DNA from: Malus domestica
Lineage: Eukaryota; Streptophyta; Magnoliopsida; Rosales; Rosaceae
Assembly: GCF_042453785.1 (NCBI RefSeq)
Contig: NC_091670.1
Location: 38,575,501 to 38,639,500, forward strand
Direction of reading: 5' to 3'
Length of the DNA stretch: 64,000 bases
Shown: one piece after another, positions 5,776 to 51,203 of the stretch
Layout: each line of letters begins with the position of its first letter
How positions within the stretch are numbered: the stretch's first letter is position 1
The notes under the pieces: generated by a model
Databases searched by the model: none
Seen by the model: the letters and a program-made list of their open reading frames with translations, nothing else
Told to the model about the DNA's origin: nothing
Program-made: the position numbers and the translations under genes

Positions 5776-6113
5776 TCTTATACTTTTCTTAAAGCAGGAT
5801 ATCAACACGTTCACAGCGTTTTTATTAATTTTTTTTTTCTTTTCTGAAATCGTTCACATCGCTTTTGAATGTACATTAGACACTTGGCAAATGAAAAGTA
5901 AAATCAATCAAAACTAATTATTAAAGAAAGACTCAGATGGGAAACGTGTAATGACATGTTGAATTACTTCAGTAATATCGGGGAAAGACCGAGGGTAATT
6001 ACGTAAATTAAAAGTAATGTCTATGTCCTTATAAGGCCCTCCGGGGCAAAACACTTGCACAAAACTAACAAAAACAAAATTTGTACCTGTTTTCTTCAGC
6101 CGCCTCGCCGTTG

Positions 6114-39695: not shown

Positions 39696-42600
39696 TCAAC
39701 GAGGTCCTGAAAGTTGCATGGCTTCAATAATGAAAGAAGACTCTTGATGCACATTACTACAAGTCCTCGAGAAATCATGAGCCCTGGCCTCAAAGAGGTT
39801 GGTTCCGCCTTGTGATCCCTCAGTCTCAGTATGTCCTGATTGCCCAACAAGGCCTTCCAAAATCTTCAAGACGTCTGACATCTTTGGCCGGAGGATGGGG
39901 CTTGATTGAGTACACTGGAGAGCTAACTCGACGCATTGTTCTAGTTCTATTGCATCAAAACATCCTTTAAGATCTCGGTCTACTAGCACTTCAAGCCTTT
40001 TCTCCTCATGTAGGGTTCTAACCTGCACAATTCAAGAATATGTGAAATGTTTGAAAAGGCACGAAAACGGAGACAAAAATGAAAGAGTGCAAACTAGGAT
40101 TGTGAAAGATTAACTCTTCTTTTACACAGCTTAGATGTATGAGACAGACAAGGATGAATTATAAACCGAAGAACATTCCCGCGAAAAATGAGACAGACAA
40201 TTTACATGTGAAACTAACACTATTTACCAAATCAAGAATCATTCCCTTCTGAACTTGACCATTTCCAGCATCTAATGCTTTCTGCCCTGTTATGAGTTCC
40301 AGAAGCAGTATACCGAATCCAAAAACATCAGTTTTTTCAGAAGACTGTCCGGTTGAGAGATACTCTGGTGCTATGTGCCCTACAGTCCCCCGCACTGCAG
40401 TAGTAACATGTGATTCCCTCCGATCTAACAGCTTGGCTAGACCGAAATCCCCAACTACAGCTTCATAACTTGCGTCAAGTAAAATGTTTGCAGCTTTGAC
40501 GTCCCTATGAATAATTTTTGGATTACACTGCTCATGCAAGTACAGGAGTCCACGGGCAGCCCCAAGGGCGATACACAATCTTCTGTCCCAATCCAATGAT
40601 GGTTTTTCTCTACCAGTCTCTGTTGGTAAAACTCAAATCGTAAGAACAACCAGCAAAGAAATAAAAAAGATAAGCTACTTAGTATAAAAGACAAATGGTA
40701 CATGAACAAATTGTTAAACTGCTTGGACCGAGGAAGACATTTAGAATGCCTCAACAACAACAACAACAACAACAACAAAGCCTTTTCCCACTAAGTGGGG
40801 TCGGCTATATGAATCCTAGAACGCCATTGCGCTCGGTTTTGTGTCATGTCCTCCGTTAGATCCAAGTACTCTAAGTCTTTTCTTAGAGTCTCTTCCAAAG
40901 TTTTCCTAGGTCTTCCTCTACCCCTTTGGCCCTGAACCTCTGTCCCGTAGTCACATCTTCGAACCGGAGCGTCAGTCGGCCTTCTTTGCACATGTCCAAA
41001 TCATCGGAGCCGATTTTCTCTCATCTTTCCTACAATTTCGGCTACTCCTACTTTACCTCGGATATCCTCATTCCCAATCTTATCCTTTCTCGTGTGCCCA
41101 CACATCCCACGAAGCATCCTCATCTCCGCTACACCCATTTTGTGTACGTGTTGATGCTTCACCGCCCAACATTCTGTGCCATACAACATCGCTGGCCTTA
41201 TTGCCGTCCTATAAAATTTTCCCTTGAGCTTTAGTGGCCTACGACGGTCACACAACACGCCGGATGCACTCTTACACTTCATCCATCCAGCTCGTATTCT
41301 ATGGTTGAGATCTCCATCTAATTCTCCGTTCTCTTGCAAGATAGATCCTAGGTAGCGAAAACGGTCGCTTTTTGTGATCTTCGCTAGATTGCTCCGGTCA
41401 TTAGTGTGGATAAGTATATAAATGGATAGAGATAGGAAAGCAAACACAAGATGTACGTGGTTCACCCAGATTGGCTACGTCCACAGAATAGAAGAGTTCT
41501 CATTAATTGTGAAGGGTTTACACAAGTACATAGGTTCAAGCTCTCCTTTAGTGAGTACAAGTGAATGATTTTGTACAAATGACATTAGGAAATATTGTGG
41601 GAGAATGATCTCGTAATCACGAAACTTCTAAGTATCGGAGTGTGGTGTCGTCTTGACTTGCCTTATCTGTCTCATAGGTAGATGTGGCATCTTCTCTGAA
41701 AGTACTCTTCCTCCATCCAGGGGTGGTATCTTTAACTGGTGGAGATGCACAAGGTAATGTATCAATTTCACTTGAAGCTTACTTGTAGTCTCAGGCTTGG
41801 TCAAGCGCGATACAAACCATGTAGTAGGAGTCCCCCAAGTCGCCGAGCTAGGGGGTCTGCTGAAAGAGGTGACAGACAAGGTAAGCAATCAGAGCTCCGA
41901 CTGATTGTTCACCTTCTCCCCATCTTGCAGCAGCATGAAGGATAAAGAGAAGAAAAATGAGAAGAGATGATATGAGATACTTTTTCTTTTGAAGAAGTAA
42001 CTTTCCACAGGCTTATTCTTGAACTGAGCTGGAGGGTTTTCTGGTTTCCTCCAGAGTATAAGGCCGACTGAAGAATTTGAGGGTCAAAACAAGTCCATCA
42101 AATCTAGAGTACGTTCCACCCTACTGATATGGGATACTTTTGCTTTTGACAGAGTAATGGGTGTATCGGCACGTGTGCTGTTACGCTTGTCTCCACATGC
42201 TTCCTTGTATCCTTCGCACTTGCCCTATCTGTTCCTCAAGCAGATGCAGAATCTTCCCTAGAAACATAAGATGTTGAAGATGAGTACTCGAGAGCAATGC
42301 CAGGTAAGTAATCAGGTAAGGGGTTCCAGGCAGTCAGTTCCTGGCTGGAAGCTTGATTCCAAGTGCTGACTGATTGCTCTCTTTCTCCTTGTCTTGCAGG
42401 TAAAAACAAGGCCAAAGGAAAAGACAGGGAAAAAGCATGATATGAGATACTCTTGCTTTTAACCCTGATGATATGAGATATTCTTGCTCTAGTATAGCTT
42501 GTTTGCAGAGGTATTATCGGGGGGAAAGAAAGCTGAATATTTCGAAAGGCTTCGTTGGGAGTGCCCTCTCAGATATGATGAAGGGTTGAGCATTTTTGCA

Positions 42601-45600
42601 GGTCTGCCTGTCCGTTGGGGATGGAGGTCGACATATATAGGAGTCTCCCTAACAACAAGTAGTAATGCTATTCCTTTACCCTGCTTGGTCATAGCACGGT
42701 AGTGGGAGCTGCCAGTTGCAATGGTACTGTTCCTTTACCCTCTCTTCGCTTTTGAGAAAGTAGTCATGTTGGGAGTCTGGCTCTCGAGATTCGGAGGACG
42801 GTGCCTCTTCGATTTTGGAGCAAGCAATCTTGTTGGGAGTGTTTTCTCGAAAGTGAGTAAAGGTTGGGCATGTTTGCTAGTCTACCTTGCCACGAAGCAC
42901 AGAGGTTGACACACAAGGACTTTCCAATTATCCAGCAGTGGTACTGTTCCTTTACCCTTGTGGGTAATAATATGGTAGCTAGACCTTCAACATTTATGTG
43001 TCTAAACTTTGTTAGTGCTGTTTCTTTGCTATTCTTTTACCTTTCTTGGTCAGAGCGATGTAGTGGGAGCTGCAAGCTTCACGTGCTCAACTTTGGCAGA
43101 GAACTTTGGCAAAGTTATCTGTGGTACCCATGAGCTATTGTTGCGTGTGGGAAGTGGGTGATTGAACAGTAAGATTCATGTGCTTTCTACTTCACCAGAA
43201 GTCTTCGACAGAATGCCCATAATTTCTGCAAAGCTGAATGTGCGTGTGACAGGTGCTGACAAGGCTAGAAAAGTAGGTGCCTCTTCGATTTCTGAGATCG
43301 GCCCTCGTGGTCTCTGAGCAGCCCAGCTTTTGAGAAAGCGAGCGCCTCTTCGATTGATTCGGAGAACGATGCCTCATCGATTTTTGAGAAAGCAATCATG
43401 CTGGGGGTCTGGCTCTCGAAGATTCGGGGAGCAGTGTCTCTTCGATTTTTGAGAAAGTAATCACGTTGGGAGTCTGGCTCTCGAGATTCGAAGGGCGGTG
43501 CCTCTTCGATTTTGGAGCAAGCAATCTTGTTGGGAGTGTTTTCTCGAATGTGAGTAAAGGTTGGGCATGTTTGCTAGTCTACCTTGCCACGAAGCACAAA
43601 GGTTGACACACAGAGACTTTCCAATTATCCAGCAATGGTACTGTTCCTTTACCCTCTCTTCGATTTTTAAGAAAGTAGTCATGTTGGGAGTCTGGCTCTC
43701 GAGATTCGGAGGACGGTGCCTCTTCGATTTTGGAGCAAGCAATCTTATTGGGAGTGTTTTCTCGAATGTGAGTAAAGGTTGGGCATGTTTGCTAGTCTAC
43801 CTTGCCACGAAGCACAGAGGTTGACACACAGGGACTTTCCAATTATCCAGCAGTGGTACTGTTCCTTTACCCTTGTGGGTAATAATATGGTAGCTAGACC
43901 TTCAAAATTTATGGGTCTAAACTTTGTTAGTGCTGTTTCTTTGCTATTCTTTTACCCTTCTTGGTCAGAGCGATGTAGTGGGAGCTGCAAGCTTCACGTG
44001 CTCAACTTTGGCAGAGAACTTTGGCAAAGTTATCTGTGGTACCCATGAGCTATTGTTGCGTGTGGGAAGTGGGTGATTGAACAGTAAGATTCATGTGTTT
44101 TCTACTTCCCCAGAAGTCTTCGACAGAATGCCCATAATTTCTGCAAAGCTGAGTGTGCGTGTGACGGGTGCTGACAAGGCTGGAAAAGTAGGTGCCTCTT
44201 CGATTTCTGAGATCGGCCCTCGTGGTCTCTAGGGAGCCCAGCTTTTGAGAAAGCGAGCGCCTCTTCGATTTCTGAGATCGGCCTTCGTGGTCTTTGAGCA
44301 GCCCAACTTTTGAGAAAGCAAATGCCTCTTCGATTTCTGAGATCAACCCTCGTGATCTCTAAGCAGCCCAGCTTTTGAGAAAGCAAACGCCTCTTCGATT
44401 TCTGAGCAGGCGCCTCTTCGATTTCTGAAGCTCCGTCGAGTGCAGATTTTTATAGAGGCTGACATTAAGTTCCAAAGCACACTTGAATCTCCACCAGTAG
44501 AAGCTTCATTCTTGCACTTCTAAGATCTTGATTTGTCCGACCTCTTCTCTCTTCAACACCTTTGAAAATGTCTGGCCCCTCCGACCGTCGTTTTGACTTG
44601 AACCTTGTTGAAGAGGCAGCCCCGCCTTCTCCAGACAACATATGGCGCCCATCCTTCGTCTCCCCTACTGGTCCTCTTACCGTTGGGGATTCCGTGATGA
44701 AGAATGATATGACCGCTGCGGTGGTGGCCAGGAACCTTCTCACTCCCAAAGATAACAGACTACTTTCCAAACGGTCTGATGAGTTAGCTGTTAAGGATTC
44801 GCTGGCTCTCAGTGTTCAGTGTGCAGGTTCTGTGTCTAATATGGCCCAACGCCTATTTGCTCGAACCCGCCAAGTTGAATCCTTGGCGGCTGAAGTGATG
44901 AGTCTCAAACAGGAGATTAGAGGGCTCAAGCATGAGAATAAACAGTTGCACCGGCTCGCACATGACTATGCTACAAACATGAAGAGGAAGCTTGACCAGA
45001 TGAAGGAAACTGATGGTCAGGTTTTACTTGATCATCAGAGATTTGTGGGTTTGTTCCAAAGGCATTTATTGCCTTCGTCTTCTGGGGCTGTACCGCGTAA
45101 TGAAGCTCCGAATGATCAACCTCTGATGCCTCCTCCTTCTAGGGTTTTGTCCAGTACTGAGGCTCCAAATGATCCCCCTCCGGTGCCTTCTCTTTCTGGG
45201 GCTCTACCGACTGCTGAGACTTCTCCTAAGCAACCTTTGTGAAGGCTCCGTCTTGTGTGTTTATTTTGACTCATGTATATGTACATATTTGTAGCTGATC
45301 GGGGATATCAATAAATAAGCTTTCCTTCATTTCAACGTATTGTGTTAAATACACCAAAGCCTTCTTCGCTAAGTTCTTTGAATTTTCTTTTGTTGAAGCT
45401 TGTATGTTGAAGCTTTCTGATTGGAGCATGTAGGTTGGGGTAGTGTTCCCTTAATTTCCCGAGTGAGGAAAACTTCTCGGTTGGAGACTTGGAAAATCCA
45501 AGTCACTGAGTGGGATCGGCTATATGAATCTTAGAACGCCATTTTGCTCGATCCTGTGTCATGTCCTTCGTTAGATCCAAGTACTCTAAGTCTTTTCTTA

Positions 45601-48600
45601 GAGTCTCTTCCAAAGTTTTCCTAGGTCTTCCTCTACCCCTTCGGCCCTGAACCTCTGTCCCATAGTCGCATCTTCTCATCGGAGCGTCAGTAGGCCTTCT
45701 TTGCACATGTCCAAACCACCGTAACCGATTTTCTCTCATCTTTCCTTCAATTTCGGCTACTCCTACTTTACCCCGGATATCCTCATTCCTAATCTTATCC
45801 TTTCTCGTGTGCCCACACATCCAACGAAGCATCCTCATCTCCGCTACACCCATTTTGTGTACGTGTTGATGTTTCACCGCCCAACATTCTGTGCCATACA
45901 GCATCGCCGGCCTTATTGCCGTCCTATAAAATTTTCCCTTGAGCTTCAATGGCATACGGCGGTCACACAACACGCCGGATGCACTCTTCCACTTCATCCA
46001 TCCAGCTTGTATTCTATGGTTGAGATCTCCATCTAATTCTCCGTTCTTTTGCAAGATAGATCCTAGGTAACGAAAACGGTCGCTTTTTGGTATTTCTTGA
46101 TCTCCGATCCTCACCCCTAACTCGTTTTGGCCTCCATTTGCACTGAACTTGCACTCCATATATTCTGTCTTTGATCGGCTTAGGCGAAGACCTTTAGATT
46201 CCAACACTTCTCTCCAAAGGTTAAGCTTTGCATTTACCCCTTCCTGAGTTTCATCTATCAACACTATATCGTCTGCGAAAAGCATACACCAAGGAATATC
46301 ATCTTGAATATGTCCTGTTAACTCATCCATTACCAACGCAAAAAGGTAAGGACTTAAGGATGAGCCTTGATGTAATCCTACAGTTATGGGAAAGCTTTCG
46401 GTTTGTCCTTCATGAGTTCTTACGGCAGTCTTTGCTCCTTCATACATATCCTTTATAGCTTGGATATATGCTACTCGTACTCCTTTCTTCTCTAAAATCC
46501 TCCAAAGAATGTCTCTTGGGACCCTATCATACGCTTTTTCCAAATCTATAAAGACCATGTGTAAATCCTTTTTCCCATCTCTATATCTTTCCATCAATCT
46601 TCGTAAGAGATAGATTGCCTCCATGGTTGAGCGCCCTGGCATGAACCCGAATTGGTTGTCCGAAACCCGTGTCTCTTGCCTCAATCTATGCTCAATGACT
46701 CTCTCCCAGAGCTTCATTGTATGACTCATTAGCTTAATACCCCTATAGTTCATGCAATTTTGTACGTCGCCCTTGTTCTTGTAGATAGGCACCAAAGTGC
46801 TCGTTCGCCACTCATTTGGCATCTTCTTCGTTTTCAAAATCCTATTGAAAAGGTCAGTGAGCCATGTTATACCTGTCTCTCCCAAAAGTTTCCACACTTC
46901 GATTGGTATATTGTCTGGGCCTATTGCTTTTTTATGCTTCATCTTCTTCAAAGCTACAACCACTTCTTCCTTCCGGATTCGACGATAAAAAGAGTAGTTT
47001 CTACACTCTTCTGAGTTACTCAACTCCCCTAAAGAATCACTCATTTCATGTCCTTCATTGAAAAGGTTATGAAAATAACCTCTCCATCTGTCTTTAACCG
47101 CGTTCTCTGTAGCAAGAACCTTTCCATCCTCATCCTTGATGCACCTCACTTGGTTTAGGTCCCTTGTCTTCTTTTCCCTTGCTCTAGATAGTTTATAGAT
47201 ATCCAACTCTCCTTCTTTGGTATCTAGTCGTTTATACATATCGTCGTAAGCCGCTAACTTAGCTTCTCTGACAGCTTTTTTCGCCTCTTGCTTCGCTTTT
47301 CTATACTTTTCACCATTTTCATCGGTCCTCTCCTTGTATAAGGCTTTACAACATTCCTTCTTAGCCTTCACCTTTGTTTGTACCTCCTCATTCCACCACC
47401 AAGATTCCTTTTGGTGTGGGGCAAAGCCCTTGGACTCTCCTAATACCTCTTTTGCTACTTTTCGGATACAACTAGCCATGGAATCCCACATTTGGCTAGC
47501 TTCCCCCTCTCTATCCCACACACATTGGGTGATTACCTTCTCTTTGAAAATGACTTGTTTTTCTTCTTTTAGATTCCACCATCTAGTCCTTGGGCACTTC
47601 CAAGTCTTGTTCTTTTGTCTTACTCTTTTGATATGTACATCCATCACCAACAAGCGATGTTGATTAGCCACGCTCTCTCCTGGTATAACTTTGCAATCCT
47701 TACAAGTTATACGATCCCCTTTCCTCATTAGAAGAAAATCTATTTGTGTTTTTGACGACCCACTCTTGTAGGTGATCACATGTTCTTCTCTCTTCTTAAA
47801 GAAGGTGTTGGCTAAGAAGAGATCATATGCCATTGCAAAATCCAAGATAGCTTCCCCATCCTCGTTTCTCTCCCCAAAACCATGGCCACCATGAAAACCT
47901 CCATAGTTGCCTGTCTCCCTGCCCACGTGTCCATTTAAATCTCCTCCTATAAATAACTTCTCCGTCTGAGCAATTCCTTGCACCAAGTCTCCAAGATCTT
48001 CCCAAAATTTCTCCTTCGAACTCGTATCCAACCCTACTTGAGGTGCGTACGCACTAATCACATTGATAAGTTCTTGTCCTATTACAATCTTGATTGCCAT
48101 GATTCTATCTCCTACCCTCTTGACATCTACAACATCTTGTACCAAGGTCTTGTCCACGATGATGCCAACACCGTTTCTCGTTCTATTTGTGCCCGAATAC
48201 CAAAGTTTAAACCCTGAGTTTTCTAGATCCTTTGCCTTACTACCAACCCACTTAGTTTCTTGTAGGCACATAACATTTAGAATGCCTCACTAGTCAAAAT
48301 ATAGCAATGCATCATTGTTCTGCAATTAAACCCCAAAATAGGAAACCAACAGAATGATTTCATCATAGGGAAGAAATAAGCAACGAAATGAAATGAAGAC
48401 GGACCTCTCAAACGGTCAGCAACACTTCCATTTGGCATAAAAGGATAAATAAGCAACCTCTCGTTTGGAGTCATACAAAAGCCATATAAACGTAAAAGGT
48501 TTCTATGCAAAGCCAAGCCAATCATTTCAACTTCAGTTTGAAACTGCACTTCTCCAGTGAAATTTGGATCTCTCAGTCTCTTAACTGCCATCATTGTCCT

Positions 48601-51203
48601 ATTTGGAAGACATCCTTTATATACGACTCCATATCCGCCTTGCCCTAGGATGTTTTTGGAACTAAAATTGCTGGTAGCAATTTGCAATTCTCGAAAGGAA
48701 AACCTCTTCAAGTGACTAATATCAAATTCATAATCTTGCTGCACTGCAAATACGAACCAGAGTATATCATGATATATACTGCCATATATTGTGCTCAATA
48801 AAATAAGTTAGCGTAGATCAAGAAGTACCATAAGATGTAAAGAGAAGATGAGATCTGTACCAACGCACCCAAAACACAAGCAGCATTATGGAAATAACAA
48901 ATGTACAACTAATGCCTAGAGCAACAGAAAGCACCCATCGGCGGTGACTGCTGACTTTCTGTGGTGAACCTGCCTCTGCAGGTAAATTTTCGTGAACGTG
49001 AAACCATATCCAAGAAACAGTACATTAAAAAACGGATTTGAGAGGTTGAATTACCATTTGTTGGTTTGGAGACACCAACGCCGATTTGTGCTGAGTCTGG
49101 TGATGAAGGATTGCCAAGAAAGCTGTTCCCTGTAACACTGCAGTAAAACGAGTAAACTCTCAGTTGAAGTTAAGGTGTTCAAACAAAGCTCGTACTGATT
49201 GAATTTTTATTACCATCCCACCCTCATTCCTTTTTTTTTAAAACTAAAATTTTATTTCCCCCGCAAACAATATTTCTGCTGATGGTCTCACCTGTAGCCT
49301 TTTGCCTGTATTTTTGGAGTAGGACCACTAAGATTGTTAAACGATAAATCTCTGTAATATTAGTCGGAAAACAAAATTAGAGCCGGTCTAATCAATACAG
49401 AAATAAGAATGCACAGTTACAAATGAAAGGAACACATACAAGAATGAAAGACCAATGAGATCGGCAACAAGTTTGGGAATTTGACCACTCAACTTATTTC
49501 TATTAAGTCTCCTGAAATGCTTGGCATGGGAAAGGTTTCAAACACAAATAAAAATCACCAAAATAATAATTATCGGAAAAAAAATGTAACTACAATCGAT
49601 AAAAATACGAGTGCACCATCTATTTTAAGCCCTACTCACAAGTAACTTAGATGAGTCAGAAACCCCAAAGAACTCGGAATGTCTCCAGAAAACTGGTTAC
49701 CCGAGAGGTCAAGAGTTTGAAGCTCTGAAAGCGTCCCTATCGCGGCTGGGATGGGACCAGATAACAGATTGTTTTGTAACAACCTGAAATATATGAACTG
49801 AAATATGAATTAACAAGTTGTAACTACTCTTCATAACTACAAGCACAATTACATTCACCGGTAGACCTTTGGTATGTTTCTCATTTATTCGATTTTCATG
49901 CTGATTGCACATACTTCATGTTATACAGCAGAATGCATCATGTAATAGTAATCTTTATCCTTGAGAGACAAACAGGGCGCGGAGAATATCATATTCCGAT
50001 GCATGTACACAGTTACACAGACAAAGAAATGAGTTCCTACAACAAGGCCTCCTAACACACTTATGATTATCCTAGTGTTCCAACAGTTCTTGTTCAGAAA
50101 GTACCCTGCATTGCGATAAAACGTGTTTGCACAAATTTATTGTCTTCTACTCATGTTAACTCACAGAAGAATAATACTTGGATGCTTCGTTCGATCAATT
50201 GAAACACCCCATAACTTTACATTTTTCCACATCTATGTACCGAATGACACAATTAACAAGTGCTTGCTACATATTGCATACAGATCAAATTGTGGCTTAC
50301 AGTGTTCGAATGTGACTCAAGTTCCCAATACTCGGCGAAAGCATCCCGGATAAATCCGTGCTGACCATTGCACTGGAAAAAGCAAGAACATTAAACCCTA
50401 TGTCGAGTTTAGCCACACATGCATGCTACTAACTGTATAAAATTCATAGCTTCCAACAGACAGAAGATAACACTGGTTTCAACAGATGCTCCCAAAAGAA
50501 AACATTCATTTTTTTCTTGTTTCATTGATTTTTTTTTTTATTTTTGGAAACTGTTTCATTCATTTTAAGAAAACTAACGAAAATGACTGGAAAACATTAA
50601 GATTTAACGACAAAGACAAAATAAAGAGTAAAGTGAATAGTACCATGATTGATTTTTTAGTGTAAAAATGCAGTTTTTCGTTAAAATAAACAGTTACGGA
50701 AGCTTTTCGTTAAAGTTCCCTTATTTTATCCAAATGCAATGCACCATCCAATACTTTGCACCAATATTTTCCCACAGCATTTTCCCGAGAAACAAACAGA
50801 AACTAACACACAATGTAGAATTACAGGGACACTCACAGGGAGATAACAAAGCCCTCAGTGGAGCAACTGACCATGTTCCAAGTGCAAGGATCGACAGAGT
50901 TTATATCCCAACCGTCCATCACACTCATCTCATCCTTCATCTCTCTCTTCACCGACATCAATGCAGCCACTAAAGCCCCACCAAAAACAAGAAAGTCACA
51001 CAAACAATTTCACCATAAAAATTATAAAAAAAAAAACTCGAAAAATCGAAAAAATGGAACTTGGGTTTTGAATCTCGAGGGGTCGTACCTTCAAAGTTGA
51101 CACCTTTGGGAGAGAGAAGGCTGTCGGAAGCGGTGGCCAAGGACATACAGAAGCAGACAAAGCAGAAGCCAAAAAGCAGCTTTTTGACACAGTTGTTTTC
51201 CAT
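39696..51203 (-). CDS. LRR receptor-like serine/threonine kinase, At5g45780 type, 11 exons, 627 aa
   Basis: A plasma-membrane receptor kinase with a short ectodomain. Exons (minus): 51089-51203, 50837-50969, 50301-50372, 49640-49783, 49440-49511, 49292-49351, 49055-49137, 48829-48975, 48405-48743, 40228-40619, 39696-40022. All junctions are GT-AG in compatible phases, giving 627 codons plus stop. Order: signal peptide, LRR N-cap with [16 protein letters not shown], about five LRRs mostly in 72-bp exon units, a transmembrane helix ([20 protein letters not shown]), juxtamembrane [15 protein letters not shown], then a kinase with [31 protein letters not shown] (RD type), DFGLAKLLD and GHIAPEYL. 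Closest to Arabidopsis At5g45780, near the NIK/SERK-like kinases. Intron 9 is 7785 bp because of a composite LINE insertion; without the insert it would be about 270 bp. The coding frame is unaffected. Confidence 0.9.
40754..41378 (-). pseudogene. RTE-type LINE 3' end fragment with GTT tail
   Basis: Encodes [20 protein letters not shown] to the end IHIADPT, parallel to the C-terminus of the longer LINE frame at 45503-48271, but broken by a frameshift near 40995. It ends in about nine GTT units (CAA on +, 40752-40778). The match to the longer copy stops abruptly at GGTCGCTTTTTG (41378). Confidence 0.75.
42719..44273. repeat. 640-bp direct repeat with 915-bp period
   Basis: The segment 42719-43358 recurs at about 43634-44273 with few differences, including GGGCATGTTTGCTAGTC and CTTTGGCAGAGAACTTTGGC. 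A third partial copy of its first 200 bp (GTTGGGAGTCTGGCTCTCG) lies between them at about 43458. Confidence 0.75.
44192..44430. repeat. About 65-bp tandem array upstream of the 224-codon frame
   Basis: Units beginning GCCTCTTCGATTTCTGAGATC and ending in CAGCTTTTGAGAAAGC recur three times in a row, followed by two shortened units. The array ends about 140 bp before the ATG of the frame at 44568 and could act as its upstream control region; that role is inference. Confidence 0.7.
44568..45242 (+). CDS. Repeat-associated coiled-coil protein of unknown function (224 aa)
   Basis: An intact open frame within the composite insertion, opposite in direction to the LINE. Start at ATG 44568; the frame is open two codons earlier without ATG. 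Residues 1-30 ([20 protein letters not shown]) contain an LDLNL-like segment; 75-150 form a probable coiled coil ([30 protein letters not shown]); the C-terminus has three Pro-rich repeats ending with GALPT-like units. No catalytic motif. It is not recognised as a host gene; it looks like a protein carried by a Rosaceae repeat. Whether it is expressed is unknown. Confidence 0.5.
   Translation: MSGPSDRRFDLNLVEEAAPPSPDNIWRPSFVSPTGPLTVGDSVMKNDMTAAVVARNLLTPKDNRLLSKRSDELAVKDSLALSVQCAGSVSNMAQRLFARTRQVESLAAEVMSLKQEIRGLKHENKQLHRLAHDYATNMKRKLDQMKETDGQVLLDHQRFVGLFQRHLLPSSSGAVPRNEAPNDQPLMPPPSRVLSSTEAPNDPPPVPSLSGALPTAETSPKQPL
45503..48271 (-). CDS. RTE-type LINE endonuclease/reverse transcriptase (922 codons, 5'-truncated)
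   Basis: Open from the 5' truncation point (48272) to a stop at 45503. The endonuclease begins already inside the first motif ([11 protein letters not shown]) and keeps [16 protein letters not shown] and [10 protein letters not shown]. The reverse transcriptase follows with [81 protein letters not shown] and the catalytic FADDIVL, then a C-terminal region with ECWAVK and [15 protein letters not shown]. There is no RNase H. The architecture is that of plant RTE LINEs, often misannotated as craniofacial development protein 2. No internal stop, so this is a fairly young copy, but without promoter and N-terminus it is probably inactive. Confidence 0.85.
50568..50720 (-). mobile_element. GGGAACTTTAACG-family short element in receptor kinase intron 2
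   Basis: On + it runs from AGAAAACTAACG to GTTAAAGTTCCC, 153 bp, the minus-strand orientation of the family. Flanks TCATTTTA / TTATTTTA are similar. It lies within the intron between exons 2 (50837-50969) and 3 (50301-50372). Confidence 0.7.

Follow-up and report, generated by a model that had tools for sequence, protein, structure and literature searches.

The insertion studied here appears to be a recent copy, truncated at its 5' end, from a family of chimeric LINEs that, judging from its sequences, looks autonomous; it lies in the window, i.e., the whole stretch of 64,000 nucleotides of Malus domestica DNA that was analyzed. A chimeric family that had been built beforehand and was spreading by itself is the preferred reading, and a probability of roughly 0.85 is given to steps 1, 3, and 4 of the pathway set out below, taken jointly.

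Structure of the insertion

A single 17-bp duplication surrounds three parts: a LINE truncated at its 5' end, other DNA amounting to 4.1 kb, and the 3' end of a second LINE, which carries a (GTT)n tail. The features are as follows (L035 is an LTR retrotransposon of the donor type, described below).

40737 to 40753, no strand: target-site duplication, left copy, 17 bp, exact match to 48273-48289
40754 to 40778, minus strand: (GTT)n 3' tail of the compound LINE (TRF 40752-40778, period 3, 9 copies)
40779 to 41374, minus strand: terminal LINE 3' end, no longer coding, 94% to 45504-46089
40787 to 40799, minus strand: 3'-terminal hairpin CCCACTTAGTGGG directly before the tail, matched exactly in 23 of the 25 copies that have a terminal end
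41371 to 41612, minus strand: 3' LTR remnant of an LTR retrotransposon, matching L035 s251-492 (92.6%) and s8595-8835 in the other LTR (91.3%)
41613 to 45503, minus strand: passenger block, covering the 3' portion of the internal region in an LTR retrotransposon of the same kind, from matches to L035
44562 to 45242, plus strand: 226-codon antisense ORF within the block, no Pfam match
45504 to 45513, minus strand: microhomology junction between LINE and LTR retrotransposon, CCACTYAGTG in LINE sense
45503 to 48271, minus strand: LINE ORF with endonuclease and reverse transcriptase, open, N-terminus missing (ORF list and Pfam)
45504 to 48272, minus strand: LINE body of the chimera, 5'-truncated in the window (compared with full-length relatives)
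48273 to 48289, no strand: target-site duplication, right copy, exact match to the left copy

A sequence-only reading had noticed that one 17-bp duplication encloses both LINE parts and unrelated DNA, and this was confirmed. There are exactly two copies of ACATTTAGAATGCCTCA in the window (40737-40753 and 48273-48289), and no further site was added when 3 mismatches were permitted. Shuffles gave a mean of 0.29 matches at 3 mismatches, with two or more matches in 2 of 100 shuffles. The GTT tail reported for the left LINE fragment is likewise present, as a (CAA)9 run at 40752-40778 that is read as GTT from the minus strand. One 5'-truncated LINE-type insertion between the 17-bp copies, with the tail of a second LINE as its 3' end and a foreign middle, is supported. 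No further copies of the element were found elsewhere in the window by blastn.

The two LINE 3' ends, whose comparison had been suggested, form a direct repeat of 586 bp (40789-41374 and 45504-46089) with 94% identity, and the terminal one would represent the 3' end of the chimeric RNA. The right LINE contains a single open frame of 922 codons (48271-45503, minus strand) with matches to Exo_endo_phos (4.5e-06) and RVT_1 (4.5e-36), and it starts about 488 bp from the family 5' terminus as seen in locus L024. It does lack a tail, as had been stated, with only about the last 12 nt missing in addition. A foreign middle also stands, with its proposed limits of 41379 and 45501 shifted: LINE homology extends to 41374, homology to the LTR retrotransposon begins at 41371, and the right junction, tail-less and about 12 nt from the end of the LINE, is best assigned to the stretch that both have in common, 45504-45513. 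The microhomology there is 9/10 identical between donor (CCACTCAGTG) and LINE (CCACTTAGTG).

The insertion sits in an intron of a host kinase gene, the flanking parts of which are the following.

40159 to 40596, minus strand: host kinase-gene exon 3' of the insertion (Pkinase 3.7e-24)
48277 to 48798, minus strand: open frame that includes the kinase-gene exon on the 5' side of the insertion (PK_Tyr_Ser-Thr 1.3e-11, spanning profile positions 4-94, with 102-204 covered by the other exon); the exon begins some way right of the duplication

For an empty-site comparison, the flanks were joined with one 17-bp copy kept, the join being at 254. A C5 paralogue gives a single match to query positions 3-274, which reaches 20 bases beyond the join at 83% identity, and its right flank (query 266-565, 92%) resumes 69 bp further on. 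Since the match runs across the joined flanks, this paralogue is, from the match coordinates, without the 7.5-kb insertion.

Origin of the passenger block

As its similarity to L035 indicates, the block is derived from an LTR retrotransposon, of which it comprises the 3' internal region and part of the 3' LTR. L035 was found without a LINE; it measures 8,858 bp, has LTRs of 515 and 514 bp, and shows ACATC beside both outer ends when the LTR end is placed at ...ACAAACA / ...ACAAATA. The sequence TTTGGCGCCGTTTATGGGAAC adjoins its LTR and is a candidate primer-binding site. Its Retrotrans_gag match (0.0011, 19.6 bits) lies under the curated 24.1, and no reverse transcriptase or integrase was found among the 6 of its 59 ORFs that were scanned. 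Block positions 41613-42715 match L035 s783-1920 at 85% and positions 44544-45513 match s2747-3703 at 89%, and the repeat-rich middle matches in pieces only. Because the similarity amounts to only 85-92%, L035 is not the immediate donor. Broken remnants of the antisense ORF are present at L035 s2710-3443, on the strand opposite its putative gag; an antisense extra ORF is a feature of Tat-type Gypsy elements. It is possible that HODOR, an abundant 9.7-kb LTR element present in apple and pear and reported to be gathered in putative centromeres (PMC13334179, PMC6901071), is kin of the donor. Helitron ends for the block had been considered on reading the sequence alone and were dropped once L035 was found.

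A family of chimeric elements

Evidence for a family emerges from other loci of the same genome. Of 39 other long block matches that were scored, 20 were fetched, namely, the 11 best and 9 further down. All 20 relatives (L009-L028) have the order that the sequence-only reading had proposed to search for, that is, LINE, block, and LINE 3' end, with the tail at the same element position and with different flanks. Target duplications of 12-21 bp were identified in 14 of them, at the element boundaries in 12 and further out in L013 and L015, as compared to 11 bp at most in a control of 420 mismatched pairs. No convincing duplication was found in five of the 20 loci (L009, L014, L017, L020, and L028), and L023 has one of 9 bp only. 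The extent of 5' truncation is graded among the fetched loci. Full-length relatives measure 8.0-8.4 kb and begin with AACTCCGCCTATGTC or one base later, and a 951-codon endonuclease-reverse transcriptase frame is intact in 4 of the 20 loci, L020 and L023 having been left out of this scoring.

In the genome, the LINE/block junction was found at 2,397 places and the block/terminal-LINE junction at 2,500, counted apart and not per copy, and controls with reversed patterns gave 0. A 31-mer from the reverse transcriptase, taken 1.27 kb upstream of the junction, was found 2,099 times. The chimeric element is put at roughly two thousand copies. On C1, this 31-mer was found at 46 places with at most 1 mismatch; 29 of these have the exact junction and 10 more have an exact block k-mer at the right distance. 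The remaining 7 have neither partner k-mer, and therefore plain LINEs may exist; in 2 of these 7, an LTR-start k-mer was seen by eye about 5 kb away.

An unrooted tree of LINE ends contains one split (support of 0.995) that separates 18 internal from 23 terminal ends, and the two ends within an element differ by about 6%, which together argue for one ancestral duplication of the LINE end. Variation falls mostly at codon position 3 in internal copies (67 of 123 cells) and less so in terminal copies (52 of 131); the majority sequence of the terminal ends has an in-frame stop, whereas internal ends remain coding. No intact instance of the hairpin was found in the 24 internal joints scored. The window copy differs by 0.17-0.41% from its nine nearest copies, and the family was apparently active until very recently. 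In one relative, L015, the 5' end includes spliced RNA from a host gene, the corresponding intron being 89 bp long and ending in CGTAG. This copy may be an instance of 5' transduction in a plant; a 2026 review states that none has so far been reported there (PMC13317346).

Proposed origin and alternative explanations

The following pathway is proposed. In step 1, a LINE received an LTR retrotransposon in the sense orientation, about 0.87 kb before its 3' end, as evidenced by the LTR terminus in old copies. In step 2, RNA running through the 3' LTR into that LINE end would have served for target-primed reverse transcription, since the 3' hairpin and tail at which it ended were those of the LINE itself, and the reverse transcriptase would then have jumped at the 10-nt match onto LINE RNA near its 3' end. 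This would have produced a LINE ORF, a piece of the LTR retrotransposon, and a LINE 3' end in succession, with no tail in the middle. In step 3, such a chimera may have been able to copy itself because it had kept the ORF and 5' end and received a working 3' end from the second LINE end; amplification to the thousands of copies counted would have followed, with the later deletions that are seen at block ends in the family. In step 4, one young RNA inserted into the kinase-gene intron, leaving the 17-bp duplication observed there.

The sequence-only reading was that of a 5'-truncated read-through transcript, inserted once. A single insertion holds, whereas the making of the chimera at this site does not, given the order shared by 20 loci and the numbers of both junctions. 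In the window, a LINE, 3' foreign sequence, and a tail do lie within one target duplication, as is the case for LINE 3' transduction, and the one duplication around all parts fits read-through and capture in the very event behind this insertion; yet the event is not specific to it. Each junction is present thousands of times, and the split between internal and terminal ends is about 6% deep, as compared to the 0.17% that separates the window copy from its nearest relatives. Single-event transduction at the window site was therefore rejected and has next to no probability. Since the 20 loci share the order, each with its own flanks, and each junction occurs about 2,400-2,500 times, the window copy inherited a pre-built chimera. 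An assembly artefact or the segmental duplication of one chimeric locus, for which the use of a single assembly might speak, is just as improbable in view of the 20 fetched loci, whose flanks beyond the tail differ, whose target duplications are independent, and whose 5' truncation is graded. Simple insertion of the block as an independent element into a LINE 3' end, be it at this locus or in an ancestor, would agree with the LTR-retrotransposon sequence that the block contains, but it was rejected because 586 bp of LINE 3' end are present on both sides of the block and one block end is inside the internal region of the LTR retrotransposon; it is very improbable. A complete element elsewhere with its ends at exactly 41379 and 45501, which would have refuted the sequence-only reading, was not seen: the block forms part of the 8.86-kb L035, and neither position is an end of L035.

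The step for which an alternative carries appreciable, though clearly less than even, probability is step 2. In a plain ancestral 3' transduction, one LINE would have been situated in an LTR retrotransposon that itself lay in a second LINE, read-through would have reached the tail of the second LINE, and the tail of the first would have been deleted before or after. All three parts have the same sense, the LTR terminus exactly abuts LINE sequence in three older copies (L030, L033, and L034), followed by about 0.87 kb of LINE 3' end, and microhomology deletions are known in the family (L033/L034). Read-through thus accounts for the half of the chimera that links the LTR retrotransposon to the second LINE, where the earlier proposal is borne out. 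The first junction is less easily explained in this way: it is identical and tail-less in the 24 internal joints scored, and it coincides with a 10-nt match situated about 12 nt before the end of the LINE. The absence of a tail and this microhomology favor template switching over plain read-through at that joint, and a template switch in step 2 is fairly probable. Deletion of DNA between a LINE and a neighboring LTR retrotransposon, using the same microhomology, would leave an identical joint, and deletions of this kind are seen here in L033/L034. An intact source locus with LTR end, 5-bp duplication, and LINE was found at 0 places in a search with one guessed pattern and at most 3 mismatches.

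Comparison with known systems

The data suggest that a new autonomous LINE lineage has probably arisen from the fusion of three retroelement pieces. In this lineage, coding and RNA 3'-end recognition, two roles of one ancestral LINE 3' sequence, would be divided between two copies separated by about 4.1 kb, and a long LTR-retrotransposon passenger with an antisense ORF would have been carried through thousands of transpositions; the lineage would have been active recently and able to take up spliced host RNA at its 5' end. No published account of such a chimeric LINE family was found in the open-access literature. LINE transductions and chimeras are usually met as single insertions, whereas here one chimera has become a family of thousands, so that there are many descendants in which to trace the passenger, both of its junctions, and the duplicated 3' end. 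Furthermore, the split of the same 3' sequence into coding and noncoding copies makes the 3' nucleotides needed by a plant LINE reverse transcriptase directly testable.

RTE-type plant LINEs encode endonuclease and reverse transcriptase in one frame, have a trinucleotide tail, generate target duplications, and are subject to 5' truncation. The apple element resembles them in all these respects, with a simple-repeat (GTT)n 3' end rather than poly(A) in 20 of 20 loci. A short 3' region behind the ORF, typical of RTE-clade LINEs and perhaps not defining, is absent: about 4.7 kb follow the stop codon at 45503, consisting of the LTR-retrotransposon piece and a second copy of the element's own 3' end. 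Human L1 3'-transduction lineages and SVA are retroelements that carry flanking or foreign sequence and pass it to their progeny, as the apple family does; the apple passenger, however, belongs to a plant family of thousands of copies and is flanked on both sides by the element's 3' end. Transduction is described in the review mentioned above (PMC13317346). LINE-1 is described as forming chimeras with diverse RNAs through template switching or RNA joining in the course of target-primed reverse transcription, similar to what is proposed here, but these chimeras are mammalian, and no LTR-retrotransposon piece inside a proliferating LINE is described in the available part of that report (PMC13174262). 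In the Magnaporthe MGL/Mg-SINE/WEIRD chimeras, two or three RNAs were fused by LINE template jumps; 33 two-part chimeras and one three-part chimera, the latter with a 14-bp target duplication, were termed retropseudogenes (PMC2104539). Unlike these, the apple chimera itself encodes the enzyme and has multiplied.

The window insertion and its site

The sequence-only reading had placed one 17-bp target duplication around the whole compound, and this holds: the sequence occurs exactly twice, at the claimed places, and allowing 3 mismatches reveals no further place in the window. Enclosed by the two copies are the (GTT)n tail, a 3' LINE end, the 4.1-kb passenger block and the LINE body, with the following features:

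minus strand: LINE body, a single open 922-codon EN-RT frame
44562-45242: 226-codon ORF of the block, oriented opposite to both gag and the LINE
45504-45513: joint between LINE and block

The 5' end of this copy lies about 488 bp into the family sequence, and the start of the endonuclease is lost. The host locus is a protein-kinase gene, judged to be receptor-like; the insertion occupies one of its introns, in the same orientation as the gene, and the kinase domain is divided between the exons flanking it. A query consisting of both flanks joined at position 254, with a single copy of the 17 bp kept, matches a paralogous locus on contig C5 in one piece over positions 3-274 (83%), extending 20 bases beyond the join, and query positions 266-565 match at 92%, 69 bp further on. 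Since the match runs across the join, this paralogue is without the insertion.

A family of chimeric LINEs

The window insertion belongs to a successful family of chimeric LINEs. The genome (651 Mb, 19 contigs) was searched with 1.6 kb of the block, and 40 places, window included, were scored among 2,363 first-look candidates. Twenty of the other 39 scored places were fetched (L009-L028; the top 11 and 9 of lower rank), and all 20 contain LINE sequence, block, LINE 3' end and tail in the same order as the window, with differing flanks. In whole-genome counts allowing up to 3 mismatches, for which reversed-pattern controls gave 0, the LINE-block junction was found at 2,397 places and the junction of the block with the terminal LINE end at 2,500. 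The proposal of a single 3' transduction specific to the window site, by read-through from a LINE into the 4.1-kb DNA and a second LINE tail, is thus wrong: the compound was not made there. An RT 31-mer was present at 2,099 places, and a 31-mer of the block's ORF at 5,964, which may include LTR-retrotransposon copies. At least 39 of the 46 RT places on contig C1 (up to 1 mismatch) are chimeric, because 29 carry the junction without mismatch and another 10 an exact ORF k-mer where it would be expected; neither was seen at 7, which may include plain LINEs, the partner lists comprising exact matches only and that of the ORF k-mer reaching 29.9 Mb. For two of these 7, inspection by eye showed an LTR-start k-mer at a distance of about 5 kb. 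Of six loci chosen for absence of the exact junction, five still lead from block to LINE, and one is 5'-truncated within the block.

The fetched loci form a gradient of 5' ends, with L012 stopping just beyond the block and others arriving at a common 5' terminus, (A)ACTCCGCCTATGTC. Systematic comparison of the boundaries revealed duplications of 12-21 bp in 12 of the 20 loci, the maximum among 420 mismatched pairs being 11 bp. The duplications are located further out in L013, which has an internal deletion, and L015, which has a 5' extension; that of L023 measures only 9 bp, and no trusted target duplication emerged from this comparison for L009, L014, L017, L020 and L028. L028 (C12:8426473-8436373) has an inverted 1.5-kb LINE 5' piece beside the truncated copy, an arrangement that twin priming would produce. 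At 2,920-2,934 compared sites, the divergence of the window copy is 0.17% to L011 and L012 and ranges from 0.17 to 0.41% across L009-L017. The ORF start is reached by 7 of the 20 loci, four of which have an uninterrupted 951-codon frame.

L013 (C12:3437742-3447642) is a non-autonomous derivative of the chimeric LINE: it has kept the true 5' terminus and the tail, shows a large internal deletion, totals about 5.4 kb and is surrounded by a 16-bp duplication.

Origin of the passenger block and its joints

In older copies the block starts with TGTTGATGCACAAAATC, an LTR terminus. The LTR-start 31-mer was found at 5,805 places, older chimeric LINEs among them, and some form same-strand pairs 8.1-8.5 kb apart, as judged by eye. 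One such pair delimits L035 (C1:9494976-9504900), an LTR retrotransposon of 8,858 bp; its LTRs measure 515 and 514 bp, ACATC flanks it on either side, one stretch is a putative primer-binding site, and gag was matched weakly, short of the curated threshold. The block is 85-92% similar to L035 along a stretch that runs from within the LTR to the 3' portion of the internal region; it lacks 290 bp around the inner end of the LTR, and its repeat-rich middle matches only piecewise. L035 itself appears non-autonomous, with a gag remnant, many tandem repeats and a remnant of the antisense ORF. The 226-codon ORF, for which no Pfam match was found, remains uninterrupted in the window copy even though the LINE carries the block as no more than a passenger.

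In the older copies L030, L033 and L034, the LTR terminus directly abuts LINE sequence, about 0.87 kb from the tail, the mark of an earlier insertion of an LTR retrotransposon into a LINE. Deletions have removed this joint from L029, a further copy, and from the window's subfamily; when the genome was searched with one guessed pattern for the opposite edge of that insertion in the source LINE, no place matched at up to 3 mismatches. At the LINE-block joint, donor CCACTCAGTG and LINE CCACTTAGTG are identical at 9 of 10 bases, and the joint falls inside the 3' hairpin of the LINE; this LINE lacks its tail and roughly its final 12 nt. Template switching from LTR-retrotransposon RNA to LINE RNA would explain this joint directly. 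Alternatively, DNA may have been deleted at that microhomology, and a similar deletion did occur nearby in L033 and L034.

The two copies of the LINE 3' end

An unrooted tree of LINE 3' ends has a single split (support 0.995), separating 18 internal from 23 terminal copies. In 16 of the 17 elements compared, the two ends diverge by 5-8%; the 9% of the 17th, L013, reflects an over-extended match. Tree and divergence together indicate that the 3' end was duplicated once. Variants of the internal copies concentrate on third codon positions (67 of 123 minor-allele cells); this bias is lower in the terminal copies (52 of 131), and such cells do not represent independent events. The majority sequence of the terminal copies contains an in-frame stop. 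Of 25 terminal copies, 23 carry the hairpin CCCACTTAGTGGG beside the tail without any change; in none of the 24 scored internal joints is it intact. These patterns suggest a division of labour in which the protein would depend on the internal copy and RNA recognition on the terminal one.

A second chimera with host RNA

L015 (C7:13640907-13650807) is a chimeric LINE with the full 5' terminus, preceded within its 17-bp duplication by 456 bp that contain a partial MIR domain (24.2 bits, slightly under the curated 25.6) from a host gene that is presumably SDF2-like. This piece matches C15:2645410-2645839 at 99.5% over 430 bp, and its first 29 bp match again further upstream; between the two matches an 89-bp intron, AG|GTGAGT...CGTAG|G, has been removed. 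At the following GTGAG splice site nothing has been removed: the sequence continues to the LINE start, so that part of that intron is retained. No LINE was found at the C15 source locus within the 3.4 kb fetched. In L015, spliced host RNA has been fused to a LINE 5' end, either through 5' transduction from a source that this assembly lacks or through a jump at that end.

Comparison with known chimeras

In the open-access literature searched, no account was found of a LINE that proliferates while carrying an LTR-retrotransposon passenger, and repeat databases may already list such an element. Chimeras as such have precedents: they are described in mammals (PMC13174262), and in Magnaporthe LINE template jumps yield two- and three-part chimeras (PMC2104539).
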